Shown here: piece by piece, positions 11,558 to 27,282 of the stretch
Layout: every line of letters starts with the position of its first letter
Numbering within the stretch: position 1 is the first letter of the stretch
Assembly (NCBI RefSeq): GCF_003609995.1
Contig: NZ_AP018786.1
Span: 1,622,001-1,686,000 of the forward strand
Source: Sutterella megalosphaeroides
GTDB taxonomy: Bacteria > Pseudomonadota > Gammaproteobacteria > Burkholderiales > Burkholderiaceae_F
Length of the DNA stretch: 64,000 nt
Reading direction: 5' to 3'
Position numbers and translations under genes: made by a program
The notes under the pieces: generated by a model
Told to the model about the DNA's origin: nothing
Seen by the model: the letters and a program-made list of their open reading frames with translations, nothing else
The model's database searches: none

Positions 11558-13186
11558 TTATCCCGCCTCCTTCAGTGAAGCCTTCACCGAAGCAGTCTCC
11601 GCCGCACTCGTCCCCGCAATCCGCCCGAAGACGAAGGTTTCCGTGAGGCCGTTTCCGCCCAGGCGGTCGCGACCGTGCAGGCCCCCGGTCGTTTCTCCCG
11701 CGGCGTAGAGCCCGAGGATCGGGCGCCCGCGCGTTGAAAGCACCCTCGCCTTCCCGTCGATCGCGATCCCGCCGCACGTAAAGTGCACGGACCACGTCTC
11801 CCGCCCGTAGAAAAACGGGGGCGACGTGAGAGGAACGCCTGAAAGCGGCCGCTCGAACGTGGAATCCCATCCCTTTCGGGCGTCCCAGTTCCAGCGTTCG
11901 ATGGTGGCGGAAAGGTTCGAAAGCGGCACGCCGATGGCGGCCGCCAGAGCTTCGATGCTCTGGGCTTCCCGAACGATCCCTTCCGCGAGCTTCACGCCCA
12001 AGGTGGCGCTCTTTTGGGTGCTCGCGTCCGAAATCGCCCAGAAGCTCCGACCTTCCGTCACGTGCAGCGCGTCGGCGAGCTCCCCGAAGGGAACGCCCTC
12101 GGAAACAAAGCGCTTCCCTTCGTCGTTCACCCAGATTTCGCCCCCGACGAAGTCGAGCAGTCGCCCGCCCGAATAGGGAATCACCTGGATGTGCCGCATG
12201 CCGACTTCTTTCGCTCCGACCGCGCGCGCCATGCGAATGCCGTCGCCGGTCGCGCCGTCAAAGAGAAACCCTCGGGGGTTGGCGGTCGTGGGATAGCGCG
12301 CGTCGAGCCTCGCGTCGTAGGTCATGCGCATGGCGACGTTCGCGGAAAAGCCGCCCGTCGCGAGCACCACGGCGGGAGCGACGAAGTCGACCGTCCGGGC
12401 GCCCTCTTTCGCGCTCTTCCTACGGGCGCGAACGCCCGTGACCTTGATGTCGGACGACGCCTTTTCCCCGCTGCGTGTGAGGAGTTCCAGGGCTTCGGTC
12501 GAATGAAAGAACCGCACGCCCAGGGTTTTGGCGCGCCCCGCAAGCGCCGTCACATAGTCGTAGCCCGCCGCGGGCGTACCCGTCGAAATGTTGCGGCTCG
12601 TCACCGCACCCACGGCGCGGTATAGGAGCGGCCTCCACTCGACCCCCATGCCCGCAAGCCACCGCACGGCCGATTCGCTCTCCTCCGCGAGAATCCGCGC
12701 GAGTTCGGGGTTCGATTCGCCCGCGCCCGCTTCGAGAATCTCCCGCACCATACGTTCGACGTCGGCATCGCGCTCGGCCGGGTTCGTTGCTTCGGGCTTC
12801 CTTCGCGCAATGGAAACCGAGCCCGACGAGTAAATCCCGTGCCCGCCCGTGATCGCGCCTTTTTCAAGGAGCACCACGCGTCGGGCGCCCGCTTCTCGGG
12901 CCGCGACCGCAGCCGAAAGCCCTGCGGTGCCCGAACCCACCACGACGACGTCGGCTTCGATCCTTTCCGTCGATTCGGCCGGATGGGATGCTTCGGTGAC
13001 GGGTGTGCTCTCGGATCCTTCAGCACTTGCCGCATTCGCGCTCGCACCCCAAAGCCCGGGGAACGCAGGCAGTGCCAGCCCAACGCCAAGCTTCGCCGTC
13101 CGTTCGCAGAAGGCGCGACGGGTCGTGCGGAGGTCGTTTGCGTCCGATTCGTGAGTTGCGTGGGTATTGTGGATTTCGTCCGTCAC
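11558..13186 (-). CDS. Tat-exported FAD-dependent reductase co-transcribed with a two-component system
   Basis: A 542-residue periplasmic flavoprotein of the flavocytochrome c/fumarate reductase family. It has a Tat signal (TRRAFCERTAKLGVG, cleavage near ANA-AS), then the FAD motif DVVVVGSGTAGLSAAVAA near residue 80 and the family C-terminus AAGETTGGLHGRDRLGG. His in VHFTCGG and Arg in HGRDR are retained. The segment that carries the catalytic Arg in fumarate reductases reads FVSEGVPFGE, and the IQAHP-like loop reads HIQVIP, so the substrate probably differs. Its ATG overlaps the stop of the response regulator by four bases, making it the third gene of a sensor kinase-regulator-reductase operon. 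This suggests that its substrate, or a related compound, is the signal. Confidence 0.9.
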   Translation of the reverse strand: MTDEIHNTHATHESDANDLRTTRRAFCERTAKLGVGLALPAFPGLWGASANAASAEGSESTPVTEASHPAESTERIEADVVVVGSGTAGLSAAVAAREAGARRVVLLEKGAITGGHGIYSSGSVSIARRKPEATNPAERDADVERMVREILEAGAGESNPELARILAEESESAVRWLAGMGVEWRPLLYRAVGAVTSRNISTGTPAAGYDYVTALAGRAKTLGVRFFHSTEALELLTRSGEKASSDIKVTGVRARRKSAKEGARTVDFVAPAVVLATGGFSANVAMRMTYDARLDARYPTTANPRGFLFDGATGDGIRMARAVGAKEVGMRHIQVIPYSGGRLLDFVGGEIWVNDEGKRFVSEGVPFGELADALHVTEGRSFWAISDASTQKSATLGVKLAEGIVREAQSIEALAAAIGVPLSNLSATIERWNWDARKGWDSTFERPLSGVPLTSPPFFYGRETWSVHFTCGGIAIDGKARVLSTRGRPILGLYAAGETTGGLHGRDRLGGNGLTETFVFGRIAGTSAAETASVKASLKEAG

Positions 13187-13830
13187 GCCCGTACCTCGTG
13201 CGTATCAAGGAGCTCCTCGGGGTCCGCGACGCCCGACTCGAGCACGAGCCGAAGGAGCTCCCGCTGCGAATGAACGCCGAACTTCGCGAAGGCGTTCGAG
13301 CGGTGCATCTTGATGGTGCTCACCTCAAGCCCGAGCGCTCGGGCGGTTTCTTTGATTTGTTCCCCCTTCAGGACGGAGCGCACCACGTCGCGTTCGCGCG
13401 GCGTCAGGTCCGCAAACGTTCGCTTCAGGGCGTCGACCGGGGCGCTCTCCAAAGCGGCCTGCATCGAAAGCGTCACGGCGCTCGAGACCTTCTGAACGAA
13501 CTCCAAGGGCTCAACGGGCTTTTCGAGAAAATCCACGGCTCCGTGCCGCACGGCGTGAACGGCCGTCGAAATCGTGCCGTGCGCGGAAAGGAAGAGTACG
13601 GGCAGCGTCGCCCCGCGCCGCTCCATCTCGGCCTGCACTTCAAGGCCCGTCATCCCGGGCATGCGCATGTCAAGCACCACGCACCCCGGGCCCGAGAGCG
13701 TATCGGTCTCAAGAAAGGTGCGGCCGTCGGGGTAATAACGAACATCCCAGCCCATGGTGGTGAGCAGAAGCTCGAACGAATCGGCGAGGGCCGCATCGTC
13801 GTCGACGATGCGAACGAGGGGTTTGGTCAT
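13183..13830 (-). CDS. Response regulator, FixJ/TtrR-like, LuxR-type output
   Basis: A 215-residue regulator. The receiver domain has the acidic pocket IVDDDAAL, the phosphoacceptor Asp in CVVLDMRMPGM and the conserved Lys in LEKPVEP. The output domain is LuxR-type (LTPRERDVVRSVLKG, then EVSTIKMHRSNAFAKFGV). ATG at 13830 has GGAGA upstream and overlaps the kinase stop by four bases; its own stop overlaps the reductase start by four bases, so all three genes are translationally coupled. Family members such as TtrR, FixJ and StyR activate promoters of respiratory or catabolic genes. Likely targets are its own operon and possibly the neighbouring cytochrome-reductase operon. Confidence 0.93.
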   Translation of the reverse strand: MTKPLVRIVDDDAALADSFELLLTTMGWDVRYYPDGRTFLETDTLSGPGCVVLDMRMPGMTGLEVQAEMERRGATLPVLFLSAHGTISTAVHAVRHGAVDFLEKPVEPLEFVQKVSSAVTLSMQAALESAPVDALKRTFADLTPRERDVVRSVLKGEQIKETARALGLEVSTIKMHRSNAFAKFGVHSQRELLRLVLESGVADPEELLDTHEVRA

Positions 13831-15860
13831 GAGGGGTCTCCGGTTTTTTGATTGTCGCGGGTTGTGGTGTTCGAATCGAAACTCTTGAAGCTCTCGCTGT
13901 TCTCGAAGCGCTCGACCCTGTCGAAGGTCACGGCCGCTTCGAGGCCGCATTCGGGGAGGCGCCGCAAGGCAAGCCGCGCTCCGTGCTCGTCGACGATGTT
14001 CCGTACGATGGCAAGCCCCAAGCCGAGGCCGTCCGCTTTGACGCTTTCGCTCACGCGTTTCAAGCGCTCGAACGCCTCGTCCGGGAGCCTCGGGCCGTTG
14101 TCGACGACGCGAACGCGCACGTCGCCTTCCGCGAGCTCCGGTGCTTGCGGGCCCGTTTCGAGCATCACCCGCACGCGCGGACCCGCGGGGTCCGTCGTCT
14201 GGGCGGAAGCTTCGAGCGCGTTTTTGATGAGGTTCAGGAAAAGAAGTTCGAGTTCGAGCGGATCGCCTTCGACGAGAATCGGGTGCCCCGCCGCGTCCGC
14301 GGGCGCATAGTCGGTTTCGATCCGCCCTTTTCGGCTCCGACGGGCGCCGGCCACAGCCGCTTCGAGCCGCTCGTAGAGGTCGACGGGTCGGGGCGAACGC
14401 TTTTCGCGCTTGGCGTAGGCGCGCACCCGATCGACGATCTCGGCGATGCGGCGCGCTTCCTTTTCGGCGCCCGAGGCCGCACGGGAAAGAACCAGGTCGA
14501 CGGCGTCGGTCGCATCCGCCGCGGGAGGAACGGCAATGGGATTCGGAGTCTTACCCTTCCCCGTCGAGCTTCCCGCAGCCAACTGCGCAAGCCGCATGCG
14601 AAGGACCGCCATGTAGTTGATGACGGACCCCACGGGCTGCTTCAATTCGTGCGCGATCATGGCGCAAAGCTGACTGATGGCGCCCATGCGTTCGAGCTCT
14701 CCGAGGCGAAGGCGCGCGGCGCGCTCCGCTTCTTCAAGACGAGCGCGTTCCGCCAACGCTTCGCGAAGCTCCCGCGTACGGACGTCGACCAGGCGCCGAA
14801 GCCGCCACTCGTGAAAGAGAATGAGCCCGAGCGCGATGACAATCGCAACCACGTACCACTTGAAGCGCCGCCAGAGCGCTTCGGGGGTCCAACTCTCCAA
14901 ATAGGCCCATTCGCCGAGGTGAAGGCTCCGCTCCAATTCGCGCACCGCATGAAAGTCGCTCGTCACCTGCCAGACGTACCGCCCGCCCGTCAAGGCGTCG
15001 GCGGGCTTCACGGGCGTCAAGAGCGCAATCGTCATGAGCCGGGCGAGCTCGGGATCGGTCCCGGGTAAGGCCCCTGCCACCCAGTCGGGGTAAAGCTTCG
15101 TCGAATGCCGACAGGCAAGAAGCTCGTCCGTGACGGGCGCGACCACTTTCAAAGCTCCCGGCTCCACGAGCCCGCGGGCTTCCGCGCGCTCCAGAGCGCA
15201 GGCAGGCAAAATCCCCACGTCGAAATTCCCGGCCAAGACGCTCGATACGACGTTCGGGACGCCGTACGTCATGAAGTGGACGTCCCCGAAGAAATCTTTC
15301 GAGTCGTAGCCCGCTTCCTGCACTTCCAGGCGGGCGGCGAGCCACCCGTCCAAGGCCGTGGGGAGCGTTGCGGCCGTGCGCTTACCCTTCAAGTCCGTCA
15401 ACGTCGTGATGTCGGAGCGGTCGCTTCGCACAACGAAAGCCGCCCCGACGGACTGCGCGGGGTTGACGGCGGCGGTAGATAGGCGCGTTGCAATCGGATG
15501 TGCGCCCGTCGCGTCGAGCACGCGACGAAAGTCGGCCGAGGGCGCAATGAAAAGGTCGGGCCGAACGCGGTCGATGTCGGAAAGAAGCGTGATGCTTGAA
15601 AGGCGCACCACGGAGACGCGCGCTCCCGGCACATGACGCTCGATCGCTTCGATCGTGGGGCGGAGCGTCGTCGAGGGAAAATCCGTTTCGCTCGACTCCA
15701 CGACGCCGATCAGAACGGTGCGCGTAGGCGTCCGCTCGGGTGGGGCGTCGGCAGCCGTATGGGTAGGTGTGGCGAGTACGCAGGCGACCCCCAGGAGTCC
15801 CACGACTCCCGTCAGCAGGGAACGTTTGCCCGGAACCTTCAAGCCGCTCGTTTTGCGCAT
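13827..15860 (-). CDS. TtrS-like sensor histidine kinase with periplasmic phosphonate-binding-like domain
   Basis: A 677-residue membrane sensor. The N-terminal signal/anchor (SLLTGVVGLLGVACVLA) is followed by a periplasmic solute-binding domain of the PhnD/TtrS type at about residues 45-310 (TVLIGVVESSETDFPSTTLR, LKGKRTAATLPTALDG). Then come a transmembrane helix (WYVVAIVIALGLILF), a coiled coil, the phosphoacceptor His in AMIAHELKQPVGS, and an ATPase domain with the N box NLIKNALEAS, a G1-like VDNGPRLPD and GLGLGLAI. TtrS senses tetrathionate; no tetrathionate reductase lies nearby, and the coupled gene is an FAD reductase, so an organic acceptor is a better guess for the ligand. ATG 15860 places the signal peptide at the N-terminus. 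Confidence 0.9.
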   Translation of the reverse strand: MRKTSGLKVPGKRSLLTGVVGLLGVACVLATPTHTAADAPPERTPTRTVLIGVVESSETDFPSTTLRPTIEAIERHVPGARVSVVRLSSITLLSDIDRVRPDLFIAPSADFRRVLDATGAHPIATRLSTAAVNPAQSVGAAFVVRSDRSDITTLTDLKGKRTAATLPTALDGWLAARLEVQEAGYDSKDFFGDVHFMTYGVPNVVSSVLAGNFDVGILPACALERAEARGLVEPGALKVVAPVTDELLACRHSTKLYPDWVAGALPGTDPELARLMTIALLTPVKPADALTGGRYVWQVTSDFHAVRELERSLHLGEWAYLESWTPEALWRRFKWYVVAIVIALGLILFHEWRLRRLVDVRTRELREALAERARLEEAERAARLRLGELERMGAISQLCAMIAHELKQPVGSVINYMAVLRMRLAQLAAGSSTGKGKTPNPIAVPPAADATDAVDLVLSRAASGAEKEARRIAEIVDRVRAYAKREKRSPRPVDLYERLEAAVAGARRSRKGRIETDYAPADAAGHPILVEGDPLELELLFLNLIKNALEASAQTTDPAGPRVRVMLETGPQAPELAEGDVRVRVVDNGPRLPDEAFERLKRVSESVKADGLGLGLAIVRNIVDEHGARLALRRLPECGLEAAVTFDRVERFENSESFKSFDSNTTTRDNQKTGDPS

Positions 15861-15945
15861 CGTCCAATCGTCACTTCGTAGAGGGGGTTGGTCGCCTCGA
15901 AGCTCGACACCGGAACGGGTACGCCCCATGAGGCTCGTTCATCCA

Positions 15946-16059: not shown

Positions 16060-16327
16060 TTGTACGTCGAAAATACAACAACGAAAACAGGTGCTCCATC
16101 TTACTTTACTCTACTGTAAATGGCCTATTTTTAAGAAATATCCAAAATGTGTTGCGTTTATACAACACACTGAAAACATATACGCAAAATAGCCCATTCA
16201 TGTTTATCAATGAGTTCCTGATTTGTCACCTTGTTGTAATAAAAACTTCTTGACGCATTTGCTATCGTGAATTCACTCGCTGCAACAGAAGCGAGGCACT
16301 TCAACTTTTCGGATAGGAAAATCCATC
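16060..16327. other. AT-rich porin promoter region
   Basis: The stretch of roughly 16060-16270 is markedly AT-rich compared with the flanking GC-rich genes. It contains the porin palindrome at 16151, the second shared element TGTTTATC at 16201 and a TTGACG at 16250. It carries the control region of the first porin; no gene is seen in it. Confidence 0.5.
16151..16166. promoter_or_regulatory. Porin-array palindrome GTTG-N8-CAAC, copy 1
   Basis: GTTGCGTTTATACAAC, with arms extending outwards to GTGTTG / CAACAC. It lies 177 bases before the first porin's ATG. The same motif precedes three other porin genes and one relic. Confidence 0.6.
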
Positions 16328-17484
16328 ATGAAGAAGACTCTTGCCGCTCTCGCCGTTCTCGGCGCTTTTGCCGGTACCGCTGCCGCCGCCGACGTGCACC
16401 TCTACGGTGTCGTCGACACGGGCCTTGCGTACACTACAAGAACACCGAACTCGCCACGTCCGAAGCCGCCCTCACGCACGGCAGCGAAAGCCAGTTCGCG
16501 ATGCAGTCGGGCTACAACTCCGGCTCCCCCTTCGGCCTCCGCGGCACGGAAGACCTCGGTAACGGCCTCAAGGTCGGCTTCAAGCTCGAAAACGGCTTCT
16601 CCTCCGACGACGGCAACTTCAAGTACGAAGACCGCCTCTTCGGCCGTGAAGCCAGCCTCTCGCTCATCAGCGAATTCGGCACGTTCTCCTTCGGTCGCAT
16701 GGGCGCCCTCGGCGCCGCTGCCGGTACGTACGACGTGGTCTACGCGATCGGCGACGCCTTCGACGGCGGCGACAACGACGTCTTCGGCATGCACTCGTCC
16801 TCCCGCTACGACAACATGGTGACCTACCAGTCGCCGAAGTTCGCCGGCGTCCAGGCCACGGCCCAGTACTCCTTCAAGCAGAACTCGGTTTCGGGCTCCG
16901 GTGATGAAGGCACCTCCAAGGTCGACCGCTACGCCGGTCTCGCCGTGACGGGCGAATTCGGTCCCCTCCAGACCGTCGCCGCTTACGAACTTACGAAGTA
17001 CGCCAACACGAAGGACGCTCACGACGAAACGCACGCCTTCTACCTCGGCGGCAACTATGACCTCCAGGTGATGAAGCTCTTCGCCATGGCCCAGTACACG
17101 AAGGCCGACAAAAACTTCGGCACCTTCGAAAACCCGCTCTCCGGCGCTCAGTTCGCCGGTACTGAAGGCATCGAAAAGGGCATCGACTCCTACGGCCTCC
17201 ACCTCGGTACGATCGTCCCCGTTGCCGGCGGCGACTTCACGGCTGCCGTCTACTACGTCGACGGTGAAACCGACACGCTCCGCAATGCTGATGGCCAAGG
17301 TTCCGCCGAAGCCACCTACCTCGGTCTCTCCGCCCGCTACGTCTACCCGCTCAGTAAGCGCACCTCCGTCTACGTGGGCGCGGGCTATGCTGAAGAAAAG
17401 GCCGACCTGAAGGATGAAGCCGGCAAGGAATCCTACACGAACAAGATCGGCCAGGCTTACGCTGGTATCACCCACACGTTCTAA
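16328..17484 (+). pseudogene. Porin 1, frameshifted near codon 36
   Basis: Outer-membrane trimeric beta-barrel porin of the Neisseria/Burkholderia type. It starts normally with the signal peptide MKKTLAALAVLGAFAGTAAA and first strand DVHLYGVVDTGLAYT. At 16433-16435 one base is missing relative to its paralogues (TAC AC- TAC AAG), and the rest of the porin (YKNTELATSEAALTHG onward, ending GITHTF) lies in the -1 frame up to 17484. Read as it stands, translation would leave the porin frame and stop near 16822. Apart from the lost base the gene looks intact, so the lesion is recent, is a reversible switch, or is a sequencing error. It keeps the porin-array palindrome and terminator. Confidence 0.85.
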
Positions 17485-17564
17485 TTCGAATAGCGCGTTG
17501 GGACACGTCGGATAGCGTGCAAGATTCGACAAACAAAGCAACGCGCGTTTGACATCGAACGTTG

Positions 17565-17602
17565 AAACCCCGCAGGAGCGATCGGCCTGCGGGGTTTTGT
17601 TT
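17565..17602 (+). terminator. Porin terminator, copy 1
   Basis: AAACCCCGCAGG and CCTGCGGGGTTT form a 12-bp stem around the loop AGCGATCGG and run into TTTTGTTTTT. Four near copies occur after other porins or relics. Confidence 0.85.
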
Positions 17603-17642
17603 TTCGCTCTCCATTCGATCTCCCCTCTTCCGTCCGACCGAC

Positions 17643-17658
17643 GTTGCGAAGACGCAAC
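17643..17658. promoter_or_regulatory. Porin-array palindrome, copy 2 (orphaned)
   Basis: GTTGCGAAGACGCAAC is followed at once by mid-porin coding sequence, so the promoter and N-terminal half have been deleted between it and the relic. Confidence 0.5.
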
Positions 17659-18107
17659 ATCCTCTATCTCGGCGGCAACTACGACCTCCACGTTATGAAG
17701 CTCTTCGCTCTCGCCCAGTACATTAAGGCAGGAAGGACCTGGGGTCGCTCGAAGACGCTTTCTCCGATCCCGATTTCGAGGGCACTCAAGGCATCGAAAA
17801 AGGCGTCGACTCGTACGGCTTTCATCTCGGGACAATCGTGCCCCTGGCTGCGGGCGACCTGACGGTCGGCGTCTACTACGCCGAGGGCGACACCTCCACG
17901 CTCCATAGCGCTTGGGGCCGCGGCTGGGCCGAAACCTCCTACGTCGGTCTTTCCGCCCGCTACGCTTATCCCTTGAGCAAGCGCACCTCGCTCTACGCGG
18001 GCGCGGGCTATGCCGAAGAAAAGATCGACCTCAAGAACGACGCCGGCACGAACCGCAACACGAACACGGTCGGTCAGGCGTACGCCGGCATCACCCACAC
18101 GTTCTGA
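17659..18107 (+). pseudogene. Porin 2 relic: C-terminal third only, also frameshifted
   Basis: Codons from LYLGGNYDLHVMKLFALAQY onward match the last ~150 residues of the neighbouring porins. At about 17733 a base is missing, and the frame continues as KDLGSLEDAFSDPDFEG, then YAEGDTSTLHS, and ends SKRTSLYAGAGYAEEK...GITHTF with the C-terminal Phe. There is no signal peptide or start. The upstream palindrome sits directly against the remnant, which marks a deletion junction near 17660. It is followed by the usual porin terminator. Confidence 0.85.
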
Positions 18108-18150
18108 TTCGGTCCGCGCATCGGACAGGCCCGGAGGGGCCTTCCAAACC

Positions 18151-18186
18151 AACCCCCGCAGGAGCGATCGGCCTGCGGGGGTTTTC
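18151..18186 (+). terminator. Porin terminator, copy 2
   Basis: AACCCCCGCAGG / CCTGCGGGGGTT with the same AGCGATCGG loop, after the porin 2 relic. Confidence 0.8.
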
Positions 18187-18227
18187 GCGTCTGTAAACTC
18201 TATCTGCGATTCCTGCCCGGGGGTGCC

Positions 18228-18243
18228 GTTGCGAAAACACAAC
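18228..18243. promoter_or_regulatory. Porin-array palindrome, copy 3
   Basis: GTTGCGAAAACACAAC, 182 bases before the ATG of porin 3. GTTTATCC follows at 18280, the same offset as in the other copies. The 302-base gap 18108-18409 holds only this control region and the preceding terminator. Confidence 0.6.
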
Positions 18244-18409
18244 ATTAGGCTTAACCCTAAAATCCATGGAAACTTTCCCGTTTATCCAGAGTCTTGATTT
18301 TTATGTACAGCTACTTCGTCGAAAAATACGAAGCCTTTTGCTAATTTTCAAAAAGCCGCTTGACTTCTCAATGCGGAGTTCGACTTCCACATTTTTCGGA
18401 AAACAGATC

Positions 18410-19564
18410 ATGAAAAAGACTCTTGCCGCTCTCGCCGTTCTCGGCGCTTTTGCCGGCTCCGCCGCTGCTGCCGATGTTACCGTCTATGGCGTCGTTGACA
18501 CCGGCCTTGCCTACACCTACGAAAACTCCGAACTCGGCGTGTCCGATACCGGCTTCACCGAAGGCACGAACGGCAGCGAAAACCAGTTCGGCATGCAGTC
18601 GGGCTACAACTCGTCCTCGCGCTTCGGCATCAAGGGCACGGAAGACCTCGGCAACGGCCTTAAGGTCGGTTTCAAGCTCGAAAACGGCTTCAGCTCCGAC
18701 GACGGCACGCTCGGCCAGAGCGGCCGCCTCTTCGGTCGTGAATCGAGCCTCTCCTTGATGAGCGAATTCGGCACGATCTCCTTCGGTCGCATGGGCGGTG
18801 TGGCTTCGTCCGCCGGCACCTACGACATCGTCTACTCGATCGCCGACTCCTTCGACGGCGGCGACAACGACGTCCTCGGTCTCAACATCTCCGACCGCTA
18901 CGACAACATGGTGACCTACCAGTCGCCGAAGTTCGCGGGCGTCCAGGGCACGGTTCAGTACTCCTTCAAGCAGGACAACAAGTCTGATACCGACACGGGC
19001 GACGAAGGCACCTCCAAGGTCAACCGCTACGCCTCGTTCGCTCTGACGGGCGACTTCGGCCCCCTCCAGATGGTCGGCGCCTACGAACTCACGAAGTACG
19101 CCAACACCGACAACCACGACGAAACGCATGCCTTCTACCTCGGCGGCAACTACGACTTCCAGGTTCTGAAGCTCTTCGCCATGGCCCAGTACACGAAGGC
19201 CGCCAAGGACTTCGGTACCCTTGAAGATCCGCTTTCCGTTATCGGCAACCTCGCCGGCACCGAAAAGGGCATCGACTCTTACGGTCTCCATCTCGGCACG
19301 ATCGTCCCCGCCTTCGGCGGCGACTTCACGGCTGCGGTCTACTACGTTGACGGCGAAACCGACACCATTGCGGACGTGCTTTCCGCCGACGCCACCTACC
19401 TCGGCGTCTCCGCCCGCTACGTCTACCCGCTCAGCAAGCGCACTTCCATCTACGCCGGTGCCGGCTATGCTGAAGAAAAGATCGACTCCAACGTCGGCCC
19501 CGTCAGCGCTACCGACAAGAACAAGCTCGGTCAGGCTTACGCCGGTATCACGCACACGTTCTAA
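18410..19564 (+). CDS. Porin 3, intact Gram-negative trimeric porin
   Basis: A 384-residue outer-membrane porin for passive diffusion of small hydrophilic solutes. The signal peptide MKKTLAALAVLGAFAGSAAA is cleaved before ADVTVYG. The 16-stranded barrel pattern, the constriction-loop signature FGRMGGVASSAGTYD and the terminal GITHTF (C-terminal Phe for BAM recognition) are all present. ATG at 18410 starts the signal peptide; the frame is open upstream but without any porin sequence. It is very similar to porin 4, with the main differences in loops near residues 45-60, 195-210 and 280-320, as expected for surface-exposed parts. Confidence 0.93.
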   Translation: MKKTLAALAVLGAFAGSAAAADVTVYGVVDTGLAYTYENSELGVSDTGFTEGTNGSENQFGMQSGYNSSSRFGIKGTEDLGNGLKVGFKLENGFSSDDGTLGQSGRLFGRESSLSLMSEFGTISFGRMGGVASSAGTYDIVYSIADSFDGGDNDVLGLNISDRYDNMVTYQSPKFAGVQGTVQYSFKQDNKSDTDTGDEGTSKVNRYASFALTGDFGPLQMVGAYELTKYANTDNHDETHAFYLGGNYDFQVLKLFAMAQYTKAAKDFGTLEDPLSVIGNLAGTEKGIDSYGLHLGTIVPAFGGDFTAAVYYVDGETDTIADVLSADATYLGVSARYVYPLSKRTSIYAGAGYAEEKIDSNVGPVSATDKNKLGQAYAGITHTF

Positions 19565-19644
19565 TTCGGACTGCGCGTCGGCACTCGTCGGATAGCGTGC
19601 AAGATCCGATGCGAACGCCGACACTCGTCTGAAAGCGAATATCG

Positions 19645-19682
19645 AACCCCCGCAGGAGCGATCGGCCTGCGGGGTTTTGTTT
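19645..19682 (+). terminator. Porin terminator, copy 3
   Basis: AACCCCCGCAGG / CCTGCGGGGTT with the shared AGCGATCGG loop, then TTTTGTTTT. Confidence 0.85.
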
Positions 19683-19721
19683 TGCCTATAAACCCGAATT
19701 CGACCCGTTCACTCTATTGCT

Positions 19722-19737
19722 GTTGCGTAAATGCAAC
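19722..19737. promoter_or_regulatory. Porin-array palindrome, copy 4
   Basis: GTTGCGTAAATGCAAC, 181 bases before the ATG of porin 4, with outer arms T and A extending the symmetry. GTTTATCC follows at 19774, and TTGACT at 19854 corresponds to TTGACT at 18360 before porin 3. The gap 19565-19902 has no other content. Confidence 0.6.
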
Positions 19738-19902
19738 ACCGAGCTCACTCTTCTTCATCCGAAACATTTTCCTGTTTATCCGTGACTTGTTATTGCATAG
19801 GCAGGAAACCCAACGAAATTGTCACTTCCTCTTGCTAATTTGGGAAAACCCGCTTGACTTCTGACGGCGGGCTTCGACTCCCCTAAATTTCGGATGCTTA
19901 TC

Positions 19903-21039
19903 ATGAAAAAGACTCTTGCCGCCCTCGCCGTCCTCGGCGCTTTTGCCGGTACCGCCGCTGCGGCCGACGTTAACCTCTACGGCATTATCGATACGGGCCT
20001 CGCCTACACCTACGACAAGGTGACCGACGGTGCGAAGGAAGACACCTTCGGGATGCAGTCGGGTTACAACTCGGCTTCCCGCTTCGGCCTTAAGGGCACC
20101 GAAGAGCTCGGAAACGGCCTTAAGGTGGGCTTCAAGCTCGAAAACGGCTTCACCTCCGACGACGGCAACTTCAAGTACGAAGACCGCCTCTTCGGCCGTG
20201 AAGCGAGCCTCTCGCTCATGAGCGAATTCGGCACGATCTCCTTCGGCCGCATGGGCGGCGTCGCTTCGTCCGCGGGTACGTACGACCTCGTCTACTCGAT
20301 CGCCGACTCCTTCGACGGCGGCGACAACGACGTCCTCGGCCTCCAGATTTCCGACCGCTACGACAACATGGTGACCTACCAGTCGCCGAAGTTCGCGGGC
20401 GTTCAGGGGACGGCCCAGTACTCCTTCAAGCAGAATTCGGTCTCCGGCGAAGGCACGGAAGGCACCTCCAAGGTCGACCGCTACGCGTCGCTCGCTCTGA
20501 CGGGCGACTTCGGGCCGCTGCAGCTGGTGGGCGCCTACGAACTCTCGAAGTACGCCAACACGGCCGACGAGCACGACGAAACGCACGCTTTCTACGTGGG
20601 CGGCAACTACGACCTCCAGGTCCTGAAGCTCTTCGCCCTCGCCCAGTACACGAAGGCGGGCAAGAACTTCGGTTCCTACTCCGACCTCCTCGGCGCCCTC
20701 GCTCCGACGGCCGAAGGCGACGAAAAGGGGATCGACAGCTACGGTCTCCACCTCGGTACGATCGTCCCGGTTCTCGGCGGCGACCTCACGGCCGGCGTCT
20801 ACTATGTCGACGGCGAAACCGACACCCTCACGAACGGCTCCGTCCAGGGCTCGGCCGACATGACCTATCTCGGCTTCTCCGCCCGCTACGCCTATCCCTT
20901 GAGCAAGCGCACGTCCGTCTACTTCGGTGCGGGCTACGCCGAAGAAAAGATCGATCCGTCGGCTTCCATCACGACCTTCGAGGACGAATACACGCACAAG
21001 ATCGGTCAGGCTTACGCCGGCATCACGCACAAGTTCTAA
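19903..21039 (+). CDS. Porin 4, intact Gram-negative trimeric porin
   Basis: A 378-residue outer-membrane porin with signal peptide MKKTLAALAVLGAFAGTAAA, mature start ADVNLYGIIDTGLAYTY, constriction-loop segment FGRMGGVASSAGTYDLVYSI, and terminal GITHKF. An in-frame ATG three codons upstream (19894) is an alternative start; the inner one matches the paralogues. Long stretches are nearly identical to porin 3, including the 3' untranslated sequence (TCGGATAGCGTGCAAGATCC), pointing to recent duplication or gene conversion. Followed by the shared terminator and then the TnpB element. Confidence 0.93.
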   Translation: MKKTLAALAVLGAFAGTAAAADVNLYGIIDTGLAYTYDKVTDGAKEDTFGMQSGYNSASRFGLKGTEELGNGLKVGFKLENGFTSDDGNFKYEDRLFGREASLSLMSEFGTISFGRMGGVASSAGTYDLVYSIADSFDGGDNDVLGLQISDRYDNMVTYQSPKFAGVQGTAQYSFKQNSVSGEGTEGTSKVDRYASLALTGDFGPLQLVGAYELSKYANTADEHDETHAFYVGGNYDLQVLKLFALAQYTKAGKNFGSYSDLLGALAPTAEGDEKGIDSYGLHLGTIVPVLGGDLTAGVYYVDGETDTLTNGSVQGSADMTYLGFSARYAYPLSKRTSVYFGAGYAEEKIDPSASITTFEDEYTHKIGQAYAGITHKF

Positions 21040-21119
21040 TTCGGGCCGTGCGTCGGCACTCGTCGGATAGCGTGCAAGATCCGACGCGAACGCCGACCCT
21101 CGTCTGAAAACGGACATCA

Positions 21120-21157
21120 AAACCCCGCAGGAGCGATCGGCCTGCGGGGTTTTGTTT
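21120..21157 (+). terminator. Porin terminator, copy 4
   Basis: AACCCCGCAGG / CCTGCGGGGTT with the AGCGATCGG loop, then TTTTGTTTTA. Confidence 0.85.
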
Positions 21158-21259
21158 TACGCCGAATTCGCAACGTCCGAATCCGACCCCACGACCTCAA
21201 GTGAGAGCGAAATGCGGGGACCCCCGAGCCTTTGAAATACCTTCGGTACAATTTCACCC

Positions 21260-22711
21260 ATGACCCAAGGACGCAAATTTTCCGCACGCTTCTCGAATGA
21301 CGCCTCCAGGTACGGCTACCTAACGTGGTCGGCCGCCCAGTCGTTCATTTACAACGAGAAGGTGCGCGAACAACGCTACTTCGACAGCCTCTACAGGCTG
21401 ATCGACGAGACGAAGCGGCACTGCCAGCCGATTCGTCCGGAGTGTTGCGTGGATCGTCCGCAGCCGGATCAGAAATACGCTCACCTTGTCGACTTCGAGG
21501 AGATGCCGTGGCTCCGCGAGGTGCCCTCGATGATCTACGGCATCGGCGCCTATCGGTTTTGTCAAGCGTCCCGGCGAATGCTCAGCGGGCTCGCCGGCCG
21601 TCCGAAGGTGCATCCGATCAAGGAGTCGGATCGCGTCTTGCAACTGACTCGAAAGTATTTCGCGATCGAGCCGCACACGCGCAAGGGGTGGTTCGTCCTG
21701 CAGTTCGGCTCCAAACAGAAGCCCGGCGGCAGCATCCTCTTCAAGGCGCATCGTGAATTCTTGATGCCCGCGATGGTCTTCGTGAAGCTCTCGGCTCGCG
21801 GGCTGTCGGTCTCCTTCTGTTATGAAGACCCCAAAGATCTCGAGTGCTTTCCCGAAACGGAAGAAGAGATCTCGGCACGTCTGATGCAATACACGAAGGA
21901 CGAGTTGCAGAAGAAGACGATCGGGGTGGACCGCGGCGTCGCGCGTCCCGTGCAGTCGAGCCACCGCGAGGCCCCCTACGGCCTTACGAAAAAGCAGCTC
22001 CAAAAAATTGCGAGTCGGGAACGCCATCGCAAGCGTCTGCAGCGCCGGCTTGCCAAGGCCAAAAAGGGGAGCAATAACCGTCGCAAAGTGAAGCGTCGTC
22101 TGGGGCGAACCTATCAGTACCAACGCAACGTCCTGGAGGACTTCGCTCATCAGACGAGCCATGCGCTCGTGTCGCTCGAAGACACCTGGCTTATCGTGCT
22201 CGAAGCGCTGAAGATCGACAATATGGTCAAACGTCCTGCTCCGGAGTACGACGAAGAAACCGGGCGACCGCTCAAGAACGGTGCTTCGGCGCATGCGGGC
22301 CTGGCAGAGTCCATTTTGAAGAGCGGCTGGGGGAAAGTCAGAACCTATTTGAGATACAAGGCCCTCAAGGCCGGAAAGCTTGTCCTTGAGGTCGACCCTA
22401 AGAACACCTCGCGTCGATGCCCCGTTTGCGGGCTTATAGATCCAAAGAACCGTCCCTCGCAGGCGGTCTTCCATTGTGTGCGATGCGGCTTTGAAGACAA
22501 CGCGGACCACGCCGCCGCGATCAACATTCGTGATCGCGGGATCGACATGCTTCTGTCGGGGCTCTACAAGCCGAAAACGAGGAAAAAGCTTCTTCGCACG
22601 AAGAAGGCGAAGCCGTCTTCGGTGAAGCTAGGCCCGGATCGGGCCGATGTAATGCCTGTGGAGCTGACGGCCCCCGACAAGACCGAGGTCTTGTCGGCAT
22701 GTCGGCGTTGA
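21260..22711 (+). CDS. tnpB: TnpB RNA-guided nuclease
   Basis: A 483-residue TnpB protein, the transposon ancestor of Cas12, which uses an RNA from its own right end to cut DNA at the donor site. The RuvC triad appears complete: Asp224 in IGVDRGVARP, Glu315 in LIVLEALKIDN and Asp416 in NADHAAAIN. A zinc finger with CPVCG (Cys387/390) and CVRCG (Cys406/409) lies between the last two. A basic helical stretch (RERHRKRLQRRLAKAKKG) follows the first Asp. Length is at the long end for TnpB, with about 50 residues after the last catalytic Asp. ATG at 21260 fits the first conserved residues; the ribosome site is weak. Confidence 0.9.
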   Translation: MTQGRKFSARFSNDASRYGYLTWSAAQSFIYNEKVREQRYFDSLYRLIDETKRHCQPIRPECCVDRPQPDQKYAHLVDFEEMPWLREVPSMIYGIGAYRFCQASRRMLSGLAGRPKVHPIKESDRVLQLTRKYFAIEPHTRKGWFVLQFGSKQKPGGSILFKAHREFLMPAMVFVKLSARGLSVSFCYEDPKDLECFPETEEEISARLMQYTKDELQKKTIGVDRGVARPVQSSHREAPYGLTKKQLQKIASRERHRKRLQRRLAKAKKGSNNRRKVKRRLGRTYQYQRNVLEDFAHQTSHALVSLEDTWLIVLEALKIDNMVKRPAPEYDEETGRPLKNGASAHAGLAESILKSGWGKVRTYLRYKALKAGKLVLEVDPKNTSRRCPVCGLIDPKNRPSQAVFHCVRCGFEDNADHAAAINIRDRGIDMLLSGLYKPKTRKKLLRTKKAKPSSVKLGPDRADVMPVELTAPDKTEVLSACRR

Positions 22712-22720
22712 ATCAGGAAG

Positions 22721-22740
22721 CCCCCGCATTCATGCGGGGG
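22721..22740 (+). other. Right-end hairpin of the TnpB element, likely end of its guide RNA scaffold
   Basis: CCCCCGCAT / ATGCGGGGG is a perfect 9-bp stem with a 2-base loop, ten bases after the tnpB stop. In related elements the guide (omega) RNA overlaps the 3' end of tnpB and this region, with the guide read from the flanking DNA; here the flank is porin-relic sequence. Confidence 0.5.
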
Positions 22741-22745
22741 TGGAT

Positions 22746-22799
22746 CACGCACAAGATCGGCAGGCGTACTACGGCATCACCCACGCGTCTGAATAGAGC
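22746..22799 (+). pseudogene. Porin relic: last ~17 codons of a porin, downstream of TnpB
   Basis: CACGCACAAGATCGG followed by CAGGCGTACTACGGCATCAC corresponds to the porin ending HKIGQAY-GITH, with one base lost after ATCGG and a changed final codon. It abuts the TnpB right end and is followed by a porin-type terminator. The 383-base gap 22712-23094 holds this relic, that terminator and the control region of porin 5. Confidence 0.7.
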
Positions 22800-22823
22800 C
22801 GCCTGTCGGACAATCCTCAAATT

Positions 22824-22859
22824 AAACCCCGAAGGAGAAATCGGCCTGCGGGGTTTTTG
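22824..22859 (+). terminator. Porin terminator, diverged copy 5 (belongs to the relic)
   Basis: AACCCCG / CGGGGTT with a loop related to the other four copies (GAAATCGGCC in place of GCGATCGGCC), then TTTTTGTTGT. Confidence 0.7.
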
Positions 22860-22922
22860 TTGTCGCCTCGCCTTCGGGATTCCGGCCATCGACCACGATT
22901 CCTCAACCGAGTTGACGGCCCC

Positions 22923-22938
22923 GTTGCAAACCCGCAAC
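22923..22938. promoter_or_regulatory. Porin-array palindrome, copy 5
   Basis: GTTGCAAACCCGCAAC, 172 bases before the ATG of porin 5. GTTTATCC follows at 22974. Confidence 0.55.
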
Positions 22939-23094
22939 AGCCGAGCAGTCCTGAAGGACAACCGCCCTCCCCTGTTTATCCGCGTATTCGCCTCGCAAAG
23001 ACACATCCCGCTGGCCGTAGCCGCACGCCTTTGGTACCGTTCTTCTAAAGTCCGCCCTGCGGACGCTTCCCTCACTCGTTTCTCCTTCCTCATC

Positions 23095-24300
23095 ATGAAA
23101 AAGACTTCCGCCGCTCTCGCGGTTTTCACCGCCCTCACCGCCCTCACCTCTCTCTCGGGCGCTGCGTCCGCCGCCGACGTCTCGGTCTACGGCGTCGTCG
23201 ACACCGGGCTTCTCTACACGTCCCGCAACGTCATCCTCGCCGCCGAAACGAATCCGGACGCGTTCACGGGCGGGCGCGTGCACGGTTTTGAAATGCAGTC
23301 GGGCTACAACGCGAGCTCCCGCATCGGTCTCAAGGGCTCGGAAGACCTCGGCAACGGCCTCAAGGCGAGCTTCGTCCTTGAAAACGGGCTCTTCACGGAC
23401 GACGGTTCGATGAAGTACGACCGGCTCTTCGGACGCGAAGCCCTGCTCGGCCTTTCGGGCGAATTCGGAACGGTTGCGTTCGGGCGCACCGGGGGCGTTG
23501 CGTCCGCCGCGGGATCGTTCGACCTCGTCTACCTGACCGCGGACGCCTTCGACGGCGGCGACAACCTCGTTTTCGGCATGCAGGCCTCGGACCGCTACGA
23601 CAATACGGCTACCTACCAAACGCCGAAGTTCGCGGGCCTCCGGGGTACGGTGCAGTATTCCTTTAAGACGGATTCTCTCGATGGCGAAGGCACCGAAGGC
23701 ACCTCCAAGGCCGACCGCTACGCCTCGATCGCCGTGACGGGCGACTTCGGTCCGCTTCAGTGGGTCGGCGCCTACGAACTCACGAAGTACGCCAACACCG
23801 ACCGCGCCGACGACACGAACGCCGTCTACCTCGGCGGCAACTACGATGCGGGCTTTGCCAAAGTCTTCCTGCTCGCCCAGTACACGGATGCGGGGAAGAG
23901 CTTTGCGAGCTTCGTGAACGCTCTGGAACCCGACGCGGCCGCGGGCTTTGCGGGCGCCGAGCACGGGTTCGACAGTTGGGGGTTGCACGTCGGCGCGATC
24001 GTTCCCGTGGCAGGCGGCGACCTGACGGCGGGCGTCTACTATGTCGACGGTGAAACGGCCGCGGTCGACTACATCGACTACACGAACAAACAGGATCTCA
24101 CCTATCTCGGTCTTTCGGCGCGCTACGTCTATCCCCTGAGCAAGCGCACGTCCCTCTACGCGGGCGCAGGTTGGGCGCGTGAAGAAGTCACGTCGACCTT
24201 CAGTCTCACCCCCGGGGGGCGCCCCACGCCTTCTTACCGGCTTCCGACTGACAAAAACACCTACACTCAAGCGTACGCGGGCGTAACCCACACGTTCTGA
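23095..24300 (+). CDS. Porin 5, intact and more divergent
   Basis: A 401-residue outer-membrane porin. The signal peptide (MKKTSAALAVFTALTALTSL...) is longer than in porins 1-4 and is cleaved near SAA-ADVSVYG. The constriction segment reads FGRTGGVASAAGSFD, and the protein ends GVTHTF. Loops near residues 45-60 and 365-385 (rich in Pro, Gly and Arg) are unlike those of porins 3 and 4, and codon-level identity to them is lower, so this is an older paralogue. The start is fixed by the signal peptide. It probably heads a two-gene transcript with porin 6, since no terminator or palindrome lies in the 67-base gap. Confidence 0.92.
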   Translation: MKKTSAALAVFTALTALTSLSGAASAADVSVYGVVDTGLLYTSRNVILAAETNPDAFTGGRVHGFEMQSGYNASSRIGLKGSEDLGNGLKASFVLENGLFTDDGSMKYDRLFGREALLGLSGEFGTVAFGRTGGVASAAGSFDLVYLTADAFDGGDNLVFGMQASDRYDNTATYQTPKFAGLRGTVQYSFKTDSLDGEGTEGTSKADRYASIAVTGDFGPLQWVGAYELTKYANTDRADDTNAVYLGGNYDAGFAKVFLLAQYTDAGKSFASFVNALEPDAAAGFAGAEHGFDSWGLHVGAIVPVAGGDLTAGVYYVDGETAAVDYIDYTNKQDLTYLGLSARYVYPLSKRTSLYAGAGWAREEVTSTFSLTPGGRPTPSYRLPTDKNTYTQAYAGVTHTF

Positions 24301-24367: not shown

Positions 24368-25528
24368 ATGCAAAAGCATCTTCTCCAACTCGCAATTCTC
24401 GGCGCCTTCTCGGTTGCCGGGGCGGCCTCCGCGGCCGACATTTCGGTTTACAGCATTGTCGATACGGGTATCGCCTACACGTCGAAAGACATTCGTTTCG
24501 GCTCGTCCGAAGCCGTACTCACGCACGGCAACGAAAAAAGCTTTTCAATGCAATCGGGCTACAACGAAGCGTCGCGCTTCGGTCTCAAGGGCTCGGAAAC
24601 GCTCGGCAACGGCCTCACCGCAGGCTTCAAGCTTGAAAACGGCTTTTCGTCCGACGACGGCGCGATGCGGTACGACGATCGGCTCTTCGGACGCGAGGCG
24701 GCCCTTTTCCTCTCGGGCGACTTCGGTACCGTCGCATTCGGCCGCATGGGCGGGGTCGCCTCCTCCGCGGGCACGTACGACCTCGTCTACGCGATTGCGG
24801 ACGCCTTTGACGGCGGCGACAACGACGTCTTCGGTCTTCAGGCTTCGGACCGTTACGACAACACGGCGACCTACCAAACGCCGAAGTTCTCGGGGCTGCA
24901 GGCCACGCTTCAATACGCCTTCAAAACGGACGGAGTGAAGGGCGAGGGTACCGAAGGTACCTCGAAAGCAGACCGTTACGCCTCGGCCGCCCTGACGGGC
25001 GACTTCGGTCCCCTGCAGTGGGTCGGCGCCTACGAACTCACGAAGTACGCCAACACCGACCGCCACGAGGATACCCACATTTTCTATGCGGGCGGCAACT
25101 ACGACTTCGGGGTTGCTCGTGTTTTTGCACTCGCGCAGTACGCGAAGGCGTCGAAGAGCTTCGCCACCTTCGAAAACGCCTTTGCCGACGAAGTCGCGAG
25201 CGGAGTTCCCGGGGCCGAGAAAGGCATCGACGGCTTCGGGGCGCACCTCGGCACGATCGTTCCCCTCTTCGGAGGCGACCTGACGGCTGCGGCCTACTAT
25301 GCCGAGGGCGAAAGCGAAACGCTCGGGTACGATTTCTACGCGGTTCAAGGCGACTTCTCGTACCTCGGGTTTTCGGCCCGCTACGTCTATCCTTTGAGCA
25401 AGCGCACGTCGCTTTACGCCGGGGCGGGCCTCGCGCGTGAAAAGTCGACCGCCAACACGGATTACGGCGCCTACTCGGATACGAACCGCTACACCCAGGC
25501 GTACGCGGGTCTCACGCACCGCTTCTGA
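24368..25528 (+). CDS. Porin 6, intact, closest to porin 5
   Basis: A 386-residue outer-membrane porin. The signal peptide MQKHLLQLAILGAFSVAGAA differs from the MKKT type of the others; the mature start is ADISVYSIVDTG. The constriction segment FGRMGGVASSAGTYDLVYAI and the Phe C-terminus (GLTHRF) are present. AGGA lies about ten bases before the ATG. It lacks the upstream palindrome found before the other porins and lies 67 bases after porin 5, so it is most simply read as the second gene of that transcript. A different, unrelated terminator follows. Confidence 0.92.
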   Translation: MQKHLLQLAILGAFSVAGAASAADISVYSIVDTGIAYTSKDIRFGSSEAVLTHGNEKSFSMQSGYNEASRFGLKGSETLGNGLTAGFKLENGFSSDDGAMRYDDRLFGREAALFLSGDFGTVAFGRMGGVASSAGTYDLVYAIADAFDGGDNDVFGLQASDRYDNTATYQTPKFSGLQATLQYAFKTDGVKGEGTEGTSKADRYASAALTGDFGPLQWVGAYELTKYANTDRHEDTHIFYAGGNYDFGVARVFALAQYAKASKSFATFENAFADEVASGVPGAEKGIDGFGAHLGTIVPLFGGDLTAAAYYAEGESETLGYDFYAVQGDFSYLGFSARYVYPLSKRTSLYAGAGLAREKSTANTDYGAYSDTNRYTQAYAGLTHRF

Positions 25529-25695: not shown

Positions 25696-27192
25696 TCAGG
25701 CCTTCACGGCTTCCTTCGCGGCGTTTTCACCGGCGATCTGGCCGAAGACGAAGCAGTCGAGCACGGCATTGCCACCCACGCGATTCGTGCCGTGGATGCC
25801 GCCCGTGATTTCGCCCGCGGCGTAGAGACGCGGAATCACGGCGCCCGTCCAATCGAGGCACTGAGCCTTCGTGTTGGTGTTGAGACCGCCCATCGTGTGG
25901 TGCACGGTCATGCCGGTGTAGCAGGCCCAGAAGGGACCCTTTTCGATCTTCTTCGTGAGGTTGACGGCGGTCTTGTTGAAGTCCTCGTCCTTCTTCGCGT
26001 CGACGAAGCCGTTGTAGCGCTTGATCGTCGCTTCGAGACCGTCGGGGTCGACGCCCATCTTCTCGGCGAGTTCGCGAATGGTCGGAGCGGACCAGGCTTC
26101 GTTGATCTTTTCGCCTTCGTGAATCGCCTTGCGGTTCACTTCGTCGTAGCTCATGAAGTTTTCGTTGTCGCAAACCGTGTAGGCATAGCGTTCGGGCGTG
26201 CCCAAAACGGCGTCGCGAATGACGTCGCGGCGTTCGCCTTCGTTCACGATACGGTTGCCGCGCTTGTCGACGTAGATCGAGCCGTTCACGTTGAAGTTGA
26301 GAAGAAGCTTCATCTTCTTGCCGGCGGGAGCGCCCGGGGTGGACTGAATGAAGTCCATGCCGACCAAGTAGCCGCCCACGCGCACGGCCGCCATTGCGAC
26401 CTGACCCGACATGGAGGGAAGGTTGTCGGTGCCGAGGCCCTTCACACGCGGATCGTGGAGTTCGCGCAGATAGGTGTTCGCACCGAACCCGCCCGCGGCG
26501 AGCACCACGGCGCGCGTCGCACGGATGTAGCGCGTTTCGCCCTTCGAATTCTTCACCTGCACGCCGAGGACATCGCCTTCGAAGCCCCCTTCGCGGATGA
26601 TTTCGACGACGTCCATGCCGGTCTTCACTTCAACGCCCAAGTCCTTCGCGGCCTTGGCGAGCACCGTGCCGTAACCCTGGCCCTTCGGAAGAGCCGGAAC
26701 GTGGGAGCGCGGATAAAGAGCGCCGAAAATCTGGATGACGTTGTCCTTGAACTTCATGCCGAGGCTTTCGAGCCACGTGATCGCGCCGTAGGCGTTTTCG
26801 CAGAGCACGCGAACGCGTTCGGGATCGCCGCGGAAGTCGCCCGCAGCGAGCGTCTGCTTCATGTGGTTTTCGGGCGAATCCTTGATGCCCTGCTTGGGCT
26901 GACGCACGGGGTCGGCGGCGTTGATGAAGCCCTGAGAAAGGAGCGTGTTGCCGCCCGCAAAGGCGAGCTTTTCAAGGACGACGATCTTCTTGGCACCCGT
27001 CTGCGCGGCCTTGACGGCGGCGGCCATGCCCGCACCGCCCGCACCGACCACCACCACTTCGTAGGTATCGGTCCACTTGACGCCGTCGGCGGACTTGGCG
27101 GAAGCGACGCTCGAGGCGCCCATCGCGGCGAGGGCGGCGCCGCCGAGACCGACGCTCTTCAAAAGACTGCGGCGGGAAAGTTCCTTGCTCAT
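25696..27192 (-). CDS. Tat-exported FAD reductase, the one closest to canonical fumarate reductase
   Basis: A 498-residue periplasmic flavoprotein. Tat signal SRRSLLKSVGLGG, cleaved near ASA-KS; FAD motif EVVVVGAGGAGMAAAVKAA near residue 45. Of the five paralogues here it keeps most fumarate-reductase active-site features: the NExxxRD segment as NEGERRD, HHTMGG with both His, and HGTNRVGG with the Arg. The loop that usually reads IQAHP is FIQSTP, so one substrate-binding His is lost. AAAGGAGA six bases upstream fixes ATG 27192. No cytochrome gene is adjacent, so electrons must come from an unlinked donor. The neighbouring TtrS/TtrR-like pair at 28490-31403 could control it. Confidence 0.9.
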   Translation of the reverse strand: MSKELSRRSLLKSVGLGGAALAAMGASSVASAKSADGVKWTDTYEVVVVGAGGAGMAAAVKAAQTGAKKIVVLEKLAFAGGNTLLSQGFINAADPVRQPKQGIKDSPENHMKQTLAAGDFRGDPERVRVLCENAYGAITWLESLGMKFKDNVIQIFGALYPRSHVPALPKGQGYGTVLAKAAKDLGVEVKTGMDVVEIIREGGFEGDVLGVQVKNSKGETRYIRATRAVVLAAGGFGANTYLRELHDPRVKGLGTDNLPSMSGQVAMAAVRVGGYLVGMDFIQSTPGAPAGKKMKLLLNFNVNGSIYVDKRGNRIVNEGERRDVIRDAVLGTPERYAYTVCDNENFMSYDEVNRKAIHEGEKINEAWSAPTIRELAEKMGVDPDGLEATIKRYNGFVDAKKDEDFNKTAVNLTKKIEKGPFWACYTGMTVHHTMGGLNTNTKAQCLDWTGAVIPRLYAAGEITGGIHGTNRVGGNAVLDCFVFGQIAGENAAKEAVKA

Positions 27193-27282
27193 GAAAATCT
27201 CCTTTGGATTGGTCGTGCGAAGCGTTGCGTTCGTACCGTTCGCTTCGCTCGCGTTTCGTTCAGGATTCATTTTCCGCAGAGG

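Follow-up and report, generated by a model that had tools for sequence, protein, structure and literature searches.

What is the function of a palindrome that recurs in front of four porin genes? The question arises from a 64,000-nucleotide stretch of the Sutterella megalosphaeroides genome (contig NZ_AP018786.1, positions 1,622,001 to 1,686,000; below, the window), in which an earlier note had pointed out copies of GTTG-N8-CAAC upstream of the porin genes that we call A to D. We put at about 0.7 the probability that this dyad is a conserved operator of outer-membrane genes whose dimeric binding protein is most likely a class I-type activator, a reading that is based on sequence comparison. 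As we picture it, a homodimeric transcription factor in charge of general, stand-alone porins together with other outer-membrane genes would have as its operator TGTTGC-N6-GCAACA, which takes the form AGTGTTGY-N6-RCAACACT in S. megalosphaeroides. The operator would be old, recurring before porins and other outer-membrane genes both in the Burkholderiales and in further gammaproteobacterial orders. Its center lies about 69-70 bp upstream of the -10 element at most porin promoters outside Sutterella, and two helical turns closer at four other outer-membrane promoters; these positions suggest a class I contact with RNA polymerase.

The dyad in its own genome

All five copies listed in the earlier note, with their 8-base gap, were recovered from the window sequence (Table 1); 100 dinucleotide shuffles of the window contained 0.81 copies on average, and a single shuffle contained five. 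The distance from the start of the motif to the ATG, given as 172-182 bases before the four porins, measured 177, 182, 181 and 172 bases for porins A, B, C and D. The note had also described the arms as constant and the inner bases as variable. The arms are invariant in the four window promoters, but the inner bases are not free: there is a preference for Y and R beside the arms (Y..R) and for A or T in the middle of the site. Conservation in these promoters is concentrated in the arms and in a GTTTATC box, and most of the remaining positions differ, which removes, for the window promoters, the concern that the promoter is evenly conserved over its whole length.

The genome (2.73 Mb, one contig) encodes 24 Porin_4 porins, with the frameshifted porin A counted once, and one partial match that we regard as a remnant. 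The bare GTTG-N8-CAAC pattern is mildly enriched genome-wide (45 occurrences, compared with 31 of the reversed pattern), and the longer GTGTTGN8CAACAC with at most one mismatch occurs 15 times against once for its reversal. Matrix scores of at least 14 were reached by 14 sites in 365 kb of this genome, and 10 of these, including that of the remnant, front porins. For the longer motif, these counts rule out a random scatter across the genome, the other outcome that the earlier note had regarded as damaging. Five porins unlinked to the cluster carry AGTGTTGY-N6-RCAACACT or a close variant 176-459 bases before the ATG; the 24-bp site of the porin at 1377239, for example, reads TAGTGTTGTGTAATCGCAACACTT. 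We scored each site with a matrix from which the tested member (for window sites, the whole cluster) had been omitted, and compared it with 300 shuffles. Eight of the 24 porins, namely A, B, C and the five unlinked ones, had a site that none of the 300 shuffles equaled; with the weak site of porin D the number of site-bearing porins is nine, plus the remnant.

The remaining 15 porins had no site in the held-out scan. Most of them adjoin genes for FAD_binding_2 flavoproteins, often accompanied by a kinase/regulator or LysR gene, or genes for other enzymes, whereas the five unlinked site-bearing porins stand alone. We therefore believe that the site marks general porins rather than those of cassettes. 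Two strong intergenic copies in this genome lie at 2236469 (L035) and 1729952 (L034), neither with a porin; one of the two follows a Sel1-type gene and has no obvious gene downstream of it, and the other is 82 bases before a gene for a GNAT acetyltransferase.

Recurrence in relatives and in other orders

A matrix built from ten sites of the S. megalosphaeroides genome was applied to the porin upstream regions of seven related genomes (genomes carry G numbers and loci L numbers here). Of 65 regions, including one (L148) shortened by a contig end, 12 scored at least 14, where 0.25 were expected from 20 shuffle sets. Palindromic expectation maximization (EM) without a seed recovered AgTGTTGCgtatacGCAACAcT in 15 porin upstream regions of G004, a genome of the same genus, and G012 (log-likelihood 71.3, compared with 31.8-33.8 for shuffled sequences), and TTTGTTGCAaattTGCAACAAA in 32 such regions of G007-G009 (73.6, compared with 35.8-41.0). 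In G001 it returned a drifted form, tTTGTGgCGAatTCGcCACAAa (52.7, compared with 31.7-34.5); the drift, in G001 and in G009, is to TTTGTGRC half-sites with GTGAC on one side. When G007 and G008 were analyzed without G009, unseeded EM gave no such motif. The features by which an operator would be recognized, namely dyad symmetry, conserved arms and a fixed spacing, were thus found both by unseeded EM and at nine of 24 porins in the own genome, weakly at D.

We then searched 120 Burkholderiales genomes for the exact TGTTGC-N6-GCAACA. Among the first 30 loci, taken one per genome, a porin was directly downstream at 9 of the 29 outside the own genome. The larger sample comprised 69 of about 114 sites outside the own genome (a total summed by hand; 4 listed and all unlisted sites were left out), and a Porin_4 gene lay downstream at 15 of the 69, 13 of them called by a hidden Markov model (HMM) within 600 bases and two, L241 and L317, by Pfam. 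The association depended on the center of the site: 12 of 33 sites with at least four A/T among the six central bases preceded a Porin_4 gene, compared with 3 of 36 otherwise (10 of 33 and 3 of 36 by HMM alone). Other Burkholderiales sites front genes for FadL (L222), OmpA (L302), an OmpA-like barrel (L247), Gcw_chp (L303), a TonB-dependent receptor/plug (L320), MlaD (L319) and PBP1A (L249). Signal-peptide proteins with no Pfam match also recur downstream (L245, L296 and L246 were scanned, and L295, L300 and L299 are alike by eye), and these six are probably outer-membrane proteins. In a class-wide sample of 140 genomes we examined 28 of about 71 sites outside the Burkholderiales (again a hand sum), all with AT-rich centers. 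Porin_4 genes were found at 10 of 25 AT-centered sites in these other gammaproteobacterial orders, as were one MlaA and one OMP_b-brl protein gene.

A fixed position on promoters

For 15 porin promoters of the Burkholderiales, the distance from the dyad center to the best -10-like hexamer is 69 bp (within 1), a register matched by none of 5000 random shifts. Ten porin promoters from other gammaproteobacterial orders gave the same 69-bp optimum independently (28 of 5000 shifts), and the 25 promoters taken jointly were matched by no shift in 5000. This register places the porin dyads near -80/-82 from the inferred start. At four outer-membrane promoters with good -35 and -10 elements (L245, L295, L296 and L300), the start is predicted at +60/61 and the dyad falls near -61; the 21-bp difference between the -61 and -82 classes is two helical turns. 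At two more outer-membrane promoters, L247 and L298, the predicted start is at +49 and agrees with neither position. In CRP-type activation, -61 and -82 are class I positions. The mark of class I action, a distance to a downstream sigma-70 promoter that is fixed and helically phased, was therefore found at porins of the Burkholderiales and of the other orders, but not in the Sutterellaceae. Additional TGTTGC half-sites are frequent 3' of the dyad (24, compared with 7.1 expected and a maximum of 15 in 200 shuffles), and in several of the gammaproteobacterial porins the extra half-site overlaps the presumed -35.

The earlier note had left open whether a dimeric repressor or an activator was involved. 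A dimer site is supported, as the arms vary independently of each other in the way expected for a protein dimer on DNA. Outside Sutterella the dyad keeps to fixed, class I-like positions upstream of the -35, and for that reason we favor an activator over a repressor. A protein probably binds at the dyad, activates from it and makes the class I contact there.

Several observations weigh against this reading. Of the porin upstream regions in the seven relatives, 53 of 65 scored below 14, and among 20 further regions (from G003, G005 and G010) only one reached that score. In the Sutterellaceae the distance from dyad to ATG ranges from 134 to 496 bases, and no fixed -10 register was found for 22 sites (2537 of 5000 shifts). 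Site D has the core but a chance-like held-out score (Table 1), and the own-genome sites at 1729952, 2236469 and 2071786 have neither a porin nor a clear envelope target. Twenty of the gammaproteobacterial sites were picked for their AT-rich centers. Finally, the exact palindrome outnumbers its reversed control by 114 to 21 in the Burkholderiales and by 71 to 17 outside them (hand sums). Because the excess is similar inside and outside that order, raw counts prove nothing, and it is the association with genes and the promoter register that carry the argument.

Double-stranded operator, RNA hairpin or common descent

Since its arms are complementary, and T runs follow several copies, the palindrome might instead act as an RNA hairpin (an attenuator, a stability element or a terminator) in a long 5' leader. 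If so, changes in one arm should be compensated in the other, and such compensatory changes were not found: arm pairing within sites was 0.854, compared with 0.863 when arms were re-dealt among sites, and 4291 of 5000 re-deals reached the observed value. In five of 24 Sutterellaceae sites the inner pair is a C facing an A. Arms that do not covary indicate that the site is read as double-stranded DNA. In addition, the promoters inferred outside Sutterella are downstream of the dyad, and the porin units already have GC-rich terminators of their own. We consider a hairpin very unlikely. Common descent of the tandem porin copies, without any function for the palindrome, has in its favor that porins A to D are tandem paralogs with near-identical terminators and start regions. 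This account is contradicted already by the recurrence of the site across orders: unlinked porins and other genera and orders carry it while the remaining promoter is unrelated, and the arms do not vary within the cluster, where most promoter positions differ. The chance that nothing beyond ancestry is involved appears negligible.

Candidate binding proteins

The conserved operator that we propose calls for a dimeric binder, and three kinds of protein were considered. A member of the CRP/FNR family would suit the 5-6-5 geometry GTTGC-N6-GCAAC, as the length of the half-sites, the N6 spacer and the class I-like location are all in keeping with the family. Against this, the own genome encodes four proteins with a cNMP domain, none an obvious order-wide regulator: one is by sequence a canonical FNR with the recognition helix ETVSR, two divergent members sit beside flavoprotein genes, and the fourth has no Pfam match. 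The helix ETVSR presumably implies TTGAT-N4-ATCAA as the FNR site, and our sites read TTGC-N6-GCAA; nor does TGTTGC-N6-GCAACA agree with the CRP site TGTGA-N6-TCACA, so the earlier note, which recognized no CRP, FNR, Fur or NtrC box, was right about the first two. A binder from this family is, in our estimation, rather unlikely. The FixJ/NarL-type response regulator encoded nearby in the window (13183-13950) could be a specific binder, given that its kinase gene and porin A point away from each other on either side of the site. No homolog of the regulator or its kinase was found among the genes within 15-19.5 kb around the five unlinked site-bearing porins, and porins that do have such neighbors (1815593, 1334447 and 2178013) have no site. 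On this neighborhood evidence we rejected it as the general binder, and a specific role for it is highly improbable.

Because the site is spread across the Burkholderiales and parts of other orders, its binder must occur there as well. By sequence, five Fis-type helix-turn-helix (HTH) proteins are encoded in the own genome: NtrC, Fis, two sigma-54-type activators and a short receiver-HTH protein of the NtrX/PlrR type. The last of these (G000:189382-190098, where G000 is the own genome) is a REC plus HTH_8 protein without an AAA+ domain, and so has the REC and Fis-type HTH combination that an NtrX regulon would require. We regard NtrX (PlrR in Bordetella), the response regulator of NtrYX, as the leading candidate, albeit a tentative one; it would act at sigma-70 promoters via its Fis-type HTH. 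Betaproteobacterial NtrX is reported to lack the AAA+ domain and hence cannot act as a sigma-54 activator, and DUF4390/PlrP, a companion of the NtrYX system, is found in beta- and gammaproteobacteria. NtrX homologs with an AAA-like insert are also present in our sample; L341 and L340, from G001 and G009, have a long insert between receiver and HTH, a total of 540 residues and an unchanged recognition helix.

In support of NtrX, 118 of the 120 Burkholderiales genomes gave matches. Many of these cover the receiver domain only, so that not all are proven NtrX, and because nearly all genomes give a match, presence or absence over the 120 genomes is uninformative. The protein could be read in 18 of 20 genomes, the own genome among them, and each time the recognition helix is ERTHLYRK. 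The site has the TGT-N12-ACA geometry of the box bound by TyrR, another Fis-type HTH protein. NtrYX is reported to control envelope genes in R. sphaeroides, ntrX to be a candidate essential gene in H. seropedicae, and phosphorylated PlrR to be essential in Bordetella; alphaproteobacterial NtrX sites share the words CAA..TTG with ours, as in CAACACCGTTG. On the other hand, published NtrX sites read CAAN2-5TTG, with the arms reversed and closer, or GCAN9TGC, and neither matches TTGC-N6-GCAA. No site was found at the own ntrYX genes, where autoregulation would have placed one (the 12 kb around plrR gave a best score of 7.8). In G001 and G009 the motif has drifted although the recognition helix is unchanged, and three genomes of genus g11 in the same family have an NtrX-like protein and no exact site. 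G010 (79% complete) has no NtrX match at 1e-30 and 0 of 9 porin upstream regions scoring at least 14, but NtrX-bearing genomes are also low.

In its broader form, which we hold to be possible rather than probable, this proposal would make the dyad the NtrX/PlrR box of Beta- and Gammaproteobacteria, with NtrX activating a core outer-membrane regulon from class I positions without sigma-54. The NtrX regulon would then include general porins, OmpA, FadL, Mla and PBP1A. Such a role would account for the essentiality, or near-essentiality, of NtrX in some Burkholderiales, and NtrX would be the porin regulator that is still missing for non-enteric bacteria.

The porin cluster of the window

The features of the cluster are collected in Table 1. 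The Porin_4 match of porin A falls in two frames (16346-16441 and 16486-17403), with the frameshift inside the first 50 codons. The copy at 17643, described in the earlier note as an orphan, does have a partner: directly downstream lies the 3' part of a porin gene that has lost its promoter and its 5' half by deletion, and we therefore read this place as the scar of another porin unit.

Table 1. Dyads, promoter boxes and porin genes of the cluster, in window coordinates
Feature	Position	Strand	Remarks
Dyad, porin A	16151..16166	.	GTTGCGTTTATACAAC; extended TGTGTTG...CAACACA; held-out score 27.4, 0/300 shuffles
Dyad before porin remnant	17643..17658	.	porin C-terminal match at 17802-18023
Dyad, porin B	18228..18243	.	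held-out score 18.5, 0/300 shuffles
Dyad, porin C	19722..19737	.	exact TGTTGC-N6-GCAACA; held-out score 17.9, 0/300 shuffles
Dyad, porin D	22923..22938	.	weakest copy; held-out score 1.4, 112/300 shuffles
GTTTATC box, porin A promoter	16202..16208	+	about 45 bp past dyad center; invariant in 4/4 promoters
GTTTATC box, porin B promoter	18280..18286	+	invariant in 4/4 window promoters
GTTTATC box, porin C promoter	19774..19780	+	invariant in 4/4 window promoters
GTTTATC box, porin D promoter	22974..22980	+	invariant in 4/4 window promoters
Porin A, frameshifted	16328..17484	+	Porin_4 match split over two frames
Porin remnant, 3' part only	17659..18107	+	partial porin match
Porin B (Porin_4)	18410..19564	+	Pfam PF13609, E 5.1e-46
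Porin C (Porin_4)	19903..21039	+	Porin_4 match
Porin D (Porin_4)	23095..24300	+	Porin_4 match
Porin E	24368..25528	+	67 bases past D; no dyad site of its own

When aligned, the porin units of the window have a near-identical terminator and start region, as in tandem duplicates. The terminators, CCCCGCAGGAGCGATCGGCCTGCGGGG, lie at 17568-17598, about 18153, 19647, 21123 and 22826, one closing each porin unit, and are a likely recombination substrate as well as a record of the tandem duplication. A TnpB-type gene (OrfB_IS605 with a Cas12f1-like TNB domain) occupies 21260-22711, between the porin C terminator and the porin D promoter. Just 3' of it, at 22748-22860, a short stretch similar to the final porin codons precedes a copy of the terminator, which suggests a further truncated porin unit. 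The flanks of the cluster (11558-15929 and 25696-31403) contain FAD_binding_2 flavoprotein genes and histidine kinase/response regulator pairs, and comparable flavoprotein cassettes with porins of their own are present elsewhere in the genome. Among the 24 own porins the CTGTTTATCC box is confined to the window cluster, and we rejected it as a general -10 element. Inspection of the window promoters by eye revealed no sigma-54 arrangement.

Comparison with known systems

Most of what is understood about how major porins are controlled comes from enteric bacteria and their OmpR. Our search of a PubMed Central subset returned no description of the motif and nothing relevant on Sutterella porin regulons. 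The conserved dyad, which stands at a defined position in porin and other outer-membrane promoters of the Burkholderiales and further gammaproteobacterial orders, can serve at once as bait for the regulator and opens porin control in non-enteric bacteria to a direct test. The same applies to the existence of a conserved outer-membrane regulon, which may be what the often essential NtrYX system is for.

Like OmpR at enterobacterial porins, the proposed factor would act on major porins globally and from upstream; the sites of OmpR are tandem direct repeats, however, whereas the site described here is an N6 dyad. Class I CRP promoters likewise have a dyad near -61 or -82 upstream of a sigma-70 promoter and a 5-6-5 architecture, but their arms are TGTGA rather than GTTGC, and no canonical CRP was identified in the own genome. 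The TyrR box, TGTAAA-N6-TTTACA, shares the 6-6-6 geometry, the TGT-N12-ACA pattern and a Fis-type HTH acting at sigma-70 promoters; it differs in arm sequence, and TyrR acts in aromatic amino acid genes.

Two further systems share words with our site. The Zur_D site of Desulfovibrio, ATGCAAC-N3-GTTGCAT, is described in PMC545781 for a zinc uptake operon; GCAAC and GTTGC are common to both sites, but its arms stand in reverse order around N3. NtrX sites are given as CAAN2-5TTG in Sinorhizobium and Brucella (PMC9223101), and GCAN9TGC was proposed for Rhodobacter (PMC7240162). These differ from the dyad in arm order and spacing, and no site is present at ntrYX here; the published targets are dcw, ntrY and cell-cycle genes, and PMC7240162 does not contain the word "porin". 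What the NtrX systems do have in common with the dyad and its proposed regulon is a Fis-type HTH regulator, envelope targets in Rhodobacter and the half-site words CAAC and GTTG.

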